Assembly: GCA_020726105.1 (NCBI GenBank)
Contig: DYTF01000006.1
Coordinates: forward strand, 1 to 39,680
Origin: Sulfurovum sp.
Lineage (GTDB): Bacteria > Campylobacterota > Campylobacteria > Campylobacterales > Sulfurovaceae
Direction of reading: 5' to 3'
Length of the DNA: 39,680 bases
The position numbers and the translations under genes were made by a program. Below, piece after piece: positions 1 to 778 of the stretch. The notes below the pieces were generated by a model. That model had not been told where the DNA came from, made no database searches, and saw nothing but the letters and a program-made list of their open reading frames with translations. Position 1 is the first letter of the stretch. Each line of letters starts with the position of its first letter.

Positions 1-778
1 TAAATACCTCAGTGGGTGCGTCAGTGTAGCCTAGTAACAAGAGATAGTTGATGATCGCATCAGGGATGAAGCCCTGCTCAAACAGCCATTTTACCGTTAA
101 ATTCTCATCGTCACCTACAAGAGCAGGCAGATGGGCATACTCTGTCTCTTCCTCGTAACCCAGTTGCATTTTGATATGTTTTTGTTTCGCTGTATGTATA
201 ATATCCGCCCCAGTGGAGAGTATCATCGTTACACCCATAAGCATATCAGCACAGGCAGAGGCAAAATCTGGTGTGGATGTACCGTCTGCATTCAGTATCA
301 CAAAGCTGTCTATTATATCTGGTGCTATTTCTATCTCACCCCTAATGTCATCATGGAAAACGACAGGTGCATCAGGTTTTTTAATGCGCACAACAAATGC
401 TGTGCTACTGTCTTTAAGTTTGGAAAGTTCTTCTTTGTCTGTTTCAAAACATCTACCGCTGTAGTGTTTGTTTTTAAGTGCTTCATCCCCACAGGTACAG
501 ACAAAGGCTTTATTTTTTTCCAGCAGCCCAATGGCAAGCGTTTGATAAAGGTGCAGTTTTTCACTCTGATGCAGTACGGTGTCATGTGTAAGGGCAAATT
601 TTTCTAAAATCTGCATCATCTCAGTATCTTTACCTTCGATGACTTTTTCTTTGTCCGTATCGTCTATACGCACCATGAAACGCTCTTGTTTTTGTTGCGC
701 AACAAGGTAAGAAAGTATCGCCACGCGTAGGTCATCACTGTGCATATCACCAACTGGCAACGGGGCAAATCGTAACAT
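1..778 (-). CDS. gltX: Glutamyl-tRNA synthetase paralog (GluRS2-like), 3' part outside the window
   Basis: Open frame read manually on the minus strand from ATG at 778-776 (absent from the ORF track because it runs off the edge): [58 protein letters not shown]...[27 protein letters not shown]. Resembles the class I GluRS catalytic domain (RFAPxPxG, VRIxDTDxE, NYLLLLG). Confidence 0.85.
   Translation of the reverse strand, partial: [259 protein letters not shown]

Follow-up and report, generated by a model that had tools for sequence, protein, structure and literature searches.

Degenerate GluRS2 in Sulfurovum and the association of motif loss with GlnRS across the Campylobacterales

The gltX2 locus of Sulfurovum sp. 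and its neighbours

The window, the whole stretch of 39,680 nt that was analysed, is an entire contig (G000:C116) of a Sulfurovum sp. MAG that is 84% complete and divided into 243 contigs. An open reading frame on the minus strand (positions 2 to 778) encodes the N-terminal 259 of 417 amino acids of gltX2, a pseudo-GluRS2 gene (PF00749, E 2.5e-40), and its frame is open from the N-terminal start up to the contig end. The terminal 55 bp of the window (positions 1 to 55) are identical to the end of another contig of the MAG, G000:C196, which indicates that the two contigs are adjacent in the genome. The C-terminal part of gltX2 lies on that contig (L003 1024-1554, L171), and the overlap joins the two halves into an open protein of 417 amino acids. 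Against TIGR00464, the equivalog model of bacterial GluRS, the window part scored 203 bits as a partial protein and did not reach the curated cut-off of 289.95, while a full-length near relative (L004) scored 280, an intact GluRS2 (L024) 436, and GluRS1 554. The gene was assigned to the Campylobacterales GluRS2 lineage, as its nearest homologues are GluRS2 and it is followed downstream by yggT and then slt.

The alignment confirmed the description, made earlier from the letters of the window, of a GluRS paralog in an open frame with HSDD in place of HIGN; the change lies at positions 731 to 742 (minus strand), and no HxGx pattern is present. The same preliminary description held that the downstream fold is preserved, a claim that hid further losses: TYNF is replaced by TPDF (positions 263 to 274, minus strand) and IRGEDH by LSTGAD (positions 203 to 220, minus strand), so that the Tyr and the Arg of the glutamate pocket, which we take to be those known from Thermus GluRS, are both gone. 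It also placed the KMSK motif off the contig, to be reached by leftward extension; the place of this motif is instead within the window (10 codons at positions 95 to 124, minus strand), where the KMSKR loop is deleted. Here, 23 residues stand against 31 in the canonical sequence, eight alignment columns fewer, and no KMSK-type motif was found. The C-terminal TG...GP motif has also lost its G-P, and the net charge of the protein is -24. The zinc-type cysteines C-T-C ... R-C are retained (positions 446 to 499, minus strand), with a conservation of 94-100% at the three Cys columns among degenerate homologues. In the two closest relatives of the protein, which come from separate assemblies and share 88% and 79% identity with it, HIDE and HINE stand in place of HIGN, and KMSK is absent from both. 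An assembly or frameshift error behind the motif loss was excluded, since similar losses occur in independent assemblies and in single-contig genomes.

The gene glnS (positions 2147 to 4399, plus strand) is divergent from gltX2 and encodes a GlnRS-YqeY fusion of 750 amino acids with intact HIGH and MSK motifs. It is a canonical member of NF011291 (1193 bits vs a cut-off of 681) and represents the replacement enzyme. Its start is 1,368 bp from gltX2, in agreement with the complete GlnRS previously noted about 1.4 kb away. Between the two lie a Uma2-family gene (positions 877 to 1425, plus strand; PF05685) and a RibD C-terminal-domain gene (positions 1514 to 2074, plus strand; PF01872), both of which were regarded as bystanders. 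In addition to the fusion, the genome carries GatB and a normal GluRS1 (L002, HIGG/KLSKR). Upstream of GluRS1, a masked stretch translated as X (L002 858-1391) lies inside a small helix-hairpin-helix-like open reading frame. Among the genomes searched, GatB was found in 169 of 175 and AsnRS in none of the 175; thus, GatCAB is presumably still required for Asn.

GluRS2 motifs and GlnRS across the Campylobacterales

GluRS2 orthologues were drawn from the Sulfurovaceae, a label inferred from named matches, and from the remainder of the Campylobacterales, mostly as MAGs, and 226 were scored. Degenerate copies made up 151 of 163 GluRS2 from GlnRS-bearing genomes vs 3 of 50 from genomes without a usable GlnRS. 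In Sulfurovaceae genomes of at least 95% completeness, 43 degenerate and 5 intact copies were found with GlnRS, compared with 0 degenerate and 16 intact copies without it (Fisher, 4e-11). At the DNA level, the pattern D-x-H-x-G-N-L-R, which marks an intact HIGN, was present in 13 of 145 genomes with GlnRS vs 217 of 253 without. The genomes missing both the pattern and GlnRS carry mostly intact variants, such as HTGN together with KMSKR; the f12 copies read have an intact KMSKR together with either HTGN or a substitution just ahead of the H. The others include two degenerate copies (G260 and G462) and some genomes without any GluRS2 match.

The association extends beyond the Sulfurovaceae. Degenerate copies occur in all six further families among those examined that have GlnRS and retain GluRS2 (f3, f5, f7, f9, f15, and f18), and GlnRS-lacking members with intact or near-canonical GluRS2 occur in nine (f2, f4, f6, f7, f9, f10, f11, f12, and f20). 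By the criterion used, the intact exceptions among the GlnRS-bearing members of f15 and f18 are G447 and G403 (f15) and G334 (f18). When phylogenetically independent pairs were compared, about 10 of 14 (9.7) ran in the expected direction and 0.3 in the opposite one (median p 0.004); the pairing used a FastTree tree of GluRS2 from which the motif columns had been removed, and its long branches make the number of events approximate. The proposal that GluRS2 became redundant after GlnRS, raised when the locus was first described, is strongly supported by this order-wide association.

Twelve GlnRS-bearing genomes carry an intact GluRS2, whereas a degenerate GluRS2 without a GlnRS match was found in three (G030, G260, and G462), all of them MAG assemblies of 230-480 contigs. 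This imbalance suits a gain of GlnRS first and inactivation of GluRS2 later, and genomes with GlnRS and an intact GluRS2 are the expected intermediate. One candidate of this kind, G355, was rejected since its GlnRS match carries 15 in-frame TAA/TAG codons. Translating these as Glu, according to the peritrich ciliate code, gives a full GlnRS-like reading (L298; G355:C171:7300-9900), and the contig is probably ciliate (eukaryotic) contamination of the MAG. Another genome, G133, was counted as lacking GlnRS in the independent pairing because of a frameshift, which may mark the gene as newly pseudogenized or may stem from the assembly. The frameshift lies near codon 415-425 of GlnRS (L297; G133:C77:17700-20900), and the GluRS2 of the same genome is intact.

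Detectable GluRS2 was not found in 11 of the 73 GlnRS-bearing genomes examined outside the Sulfurovaceae, so any second function of the protein is dispensable. G329 (f18, 100% complete; L265 and L304) showed neither a GlnRS nor a GluRS2 match and has the canonical GluRS1 alone. Several genomes of f13, f16, and g44 likewise have one full-length GluRS.

Selection, retained sites, and gene order

Selection on the degenerate copies was measured by the Nei-Gojobori method. The dN/dS of pairs sharing the degenerate state was about 0.1-0.3, above the values of intact pairs (mostly 0.04-0.13), and the window copy evolves fastest, with a dN/dS of about 0.31 against its nearest relative. This acceleration, the fast window branch, and the absence of gltX2 from some lineages would fit plain relaxed decay, in which a redundant GluRS2 rots on its way to being lost. 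However, amino-acid changes were fewer than in every one of 500 neutral simulations per pair in 16 of 17 degenerate pairs, as in the single intact control pair; the exceptional pair (G284/G191) has only 29 differences, and its amino-acid change equals the simulation minimum. The window copy differs from its nearest relative by 73 amino acids, where 101 differences were expected (minimum 84), and the probability of no stop was 0.01. No in-frame stop was detected inside any GluRS2 match listed, although neutral simulation would predict several, and the zinc-type cysteines and C-terminal positions are more than 90% conserved across families. Relaxed decay is accordingly quite unlikely. Of the two outcomes offered for this gene by the preliminary description, decay or a non-catalytic role, the second is favored by the open frames, the dN/dS values, and the below-neutral change, and simple decay is not. 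The window gltX2 combines the loss of its catalytic residues with purifying selection, as is characteristic of a pseudo-synthetase. It is highly probable that the order-wide pattern is one in which the GluRS2 active site was repeatedly lost in the presence of GlnRS and the protein was usually retained under selection.

The degenerate proteins have not lost all regions alike. Of the columns fixed in intact Sulfurovaceae copies, the KMSK loop kept 34% and the Rossmann halves 63-77%, compared with 83% for the anticodon-binding domain and 88% for the stem-contact fold, with domain boundaries as we assigned them. Cys 94, 96, and 121 of the zinc type were retained at 94-100%. Entropy in degenerate Sulfurovaceae proteins was lowest at residues 321-340 and 421-436. 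The degenerate copies of other families conserve these parts at least as well as the intact copies do. The fold model of L004, which is 88% identical to the N-terminal part encoded in the window, had a pLDDT of 90.8, and its best PDB matches were GluRS (TMq up to 0.85), covering both the catalytic and the helical C-terminal domains. The Rossmann fold, kept in sequence and model, could be taken as a sign of a working synthetase or of some other adenylate-forming enzyme whose motifs are unusual, but HIGH, KMSK (with gaps in roughly two thirds of copies), and both glutamate-pocket residues, Tyr and Arg, drift without any new consensus, which makes this reading extremely improbable. The motif loss predicts that degenerate GluRS2 has no aminoacylation activity.

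Continued binding of tRNA-Gln, with GluRS2 serving the neighbouring GlnRS as accessory subunit, chaperone, or regulator, has more in its favor. The zinc module and the stem-contact fold are kept, and glnS adjoins or overlaps gltX2 in many genomes: the two are often divergent neighbours in the Sulfurovaceae and f15, and in f18 they overlap by 8 nt in ten genomes. In f7, however, they are mostly far apart, and the adjacency could be a relic of the glnS insertion site. Moreover, the mean net charge falls from -6.6 in intact to -17.6 in degenerate copies in the Sulfurovaceae and from -2.2 to -14.7 in the others, and Lys389, Lys399, and Lys401, which are conserved in intact copies, are lost from degenerate ones. 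These changes argue against continued tRNA binding and suggest that tRNA affinity has been lost. The tRNA chaperone was downgraded as the leading reading on the net-charge result, and we consider an accessory role at the tRNA unlikely.

The gene order downstream is nearly constant. The gene yggT, with a Pfam check of the neighbours, comes directly after 147 of 147 degenerate and 43 of 47 intact copies, with slt usually next, and the window's genome has the same gltX2-yggT-slt order on C196. The gene could thus be kept for the operon only, its translation as the first gene being needed for the expression of yggT and slt. Nevertheless, yggT and slt are still together in 10 of 11 GlnRS-bearing genomes without gltX2, where the slt loci were located with an approximate Slt query and then read directly, and therefore membership of the operon is not enough by itself to keep gltX2 in place. 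In L310 (G309), the order is glnS-yggT-slt, with gltX2 missing between glnS and yggT-slt. Polarity also leaves the conservation of specific amino acids unexplained. As the sole cause of retention, operon polarity was downgraded, and it has little chance of being correct.

A proposed second function of GluRS2

The full explanation that we favor, and hold to be somewhat probable, is redundancy after GlnRS capture together with a second function that does not involve tRNA binding. The ancestral GluRS2 would have been the tRNA-Gln-specific glutamyl-tRNA synthetase of the Campylobacterales. Once the GlnRS-YqeY fusion had been acquired, Gln-tRNA-Gln would be made directly and the route through GluRS2 and GatCAB would become redundant for Gln, while GatCAB would have stayed for Asn for want of an AsnRS. 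GluRS2 would then have repeatedly lost HIGH, KMSK, the glutamate pocket, and part of the basic surface that reads the anticodon, and the protein may have been kept in most lineages because of a second, non-catalytic function. This function would be carried by the folded core and the C-terminal helices (about 301-345 and 421-436 in Sulfurovum numbering), which probably bind a protein partner. Tentatively, the second function may be ancient, independent of aminoacylation, and possibly tied to yggT and slt, envelope genes of the same apparent operon, in which case GlnRS capture would have repeatedly unmasked it and catalysis would have been let go.

The protein shares its lineage, its C-terminal domain, and usually its operon neighbours with the tRNA-Gln-specific GluRS2 (GltX2) of the Helicobacter pylori type, whose intact relatives have HIGN and KMSKR; the degenerate copies differ in lacking HIGH, KMSK, and the glutamate pocket and in having GlnRS in the genome. 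HisZ is another aminoacyl-tRNA synthetase-like protein whose function has changed. A 'non-functional GluRS2' of Thermotoga maritima, also a GluRS paralogue, is described as unable to glutamylate tRNA-Glx and as having arisen by duplication of the catalytic domain of GluRS1 (PMC3927822), whereas in the present case catalysis appears to have been lost, in GlnRS-bearing genomes, from a GluRS2 that has intact relatives. GluQRS/YadB, a catalytically active protein without the anticodon domain (PMC9437257), is likewise derived from a synthetase with a changed function, but the present case appears to be the reverse, with catalytic residues lost and the anticodon-binding domain kept. Six epsilonproteobacteria were reported in 2014 to carry both GluRS2 and GlnRS, with the suggestion that their GlnRS is possibly non-functional (PMC3927822); the motifs kept in GlnRS and not in GluRS2 of the window point the opposite way. 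A literature search, mainly of openly available papers, found no account of degenerate GluRS2 in the Campylobacterales and none of a second, non-catalytic role of GluRS2.

The annotations of glutamate-tRNA ligase on the degenerate genes of these genomes probably do not denote ligases. The swap of charging route would set the catalytic role of GluRS2 apart from its proposed non-catalytic one. It amounts to a natural experiment with replicates in several families, in which the swap strips the synthetase of its catalysis and the protein stays.
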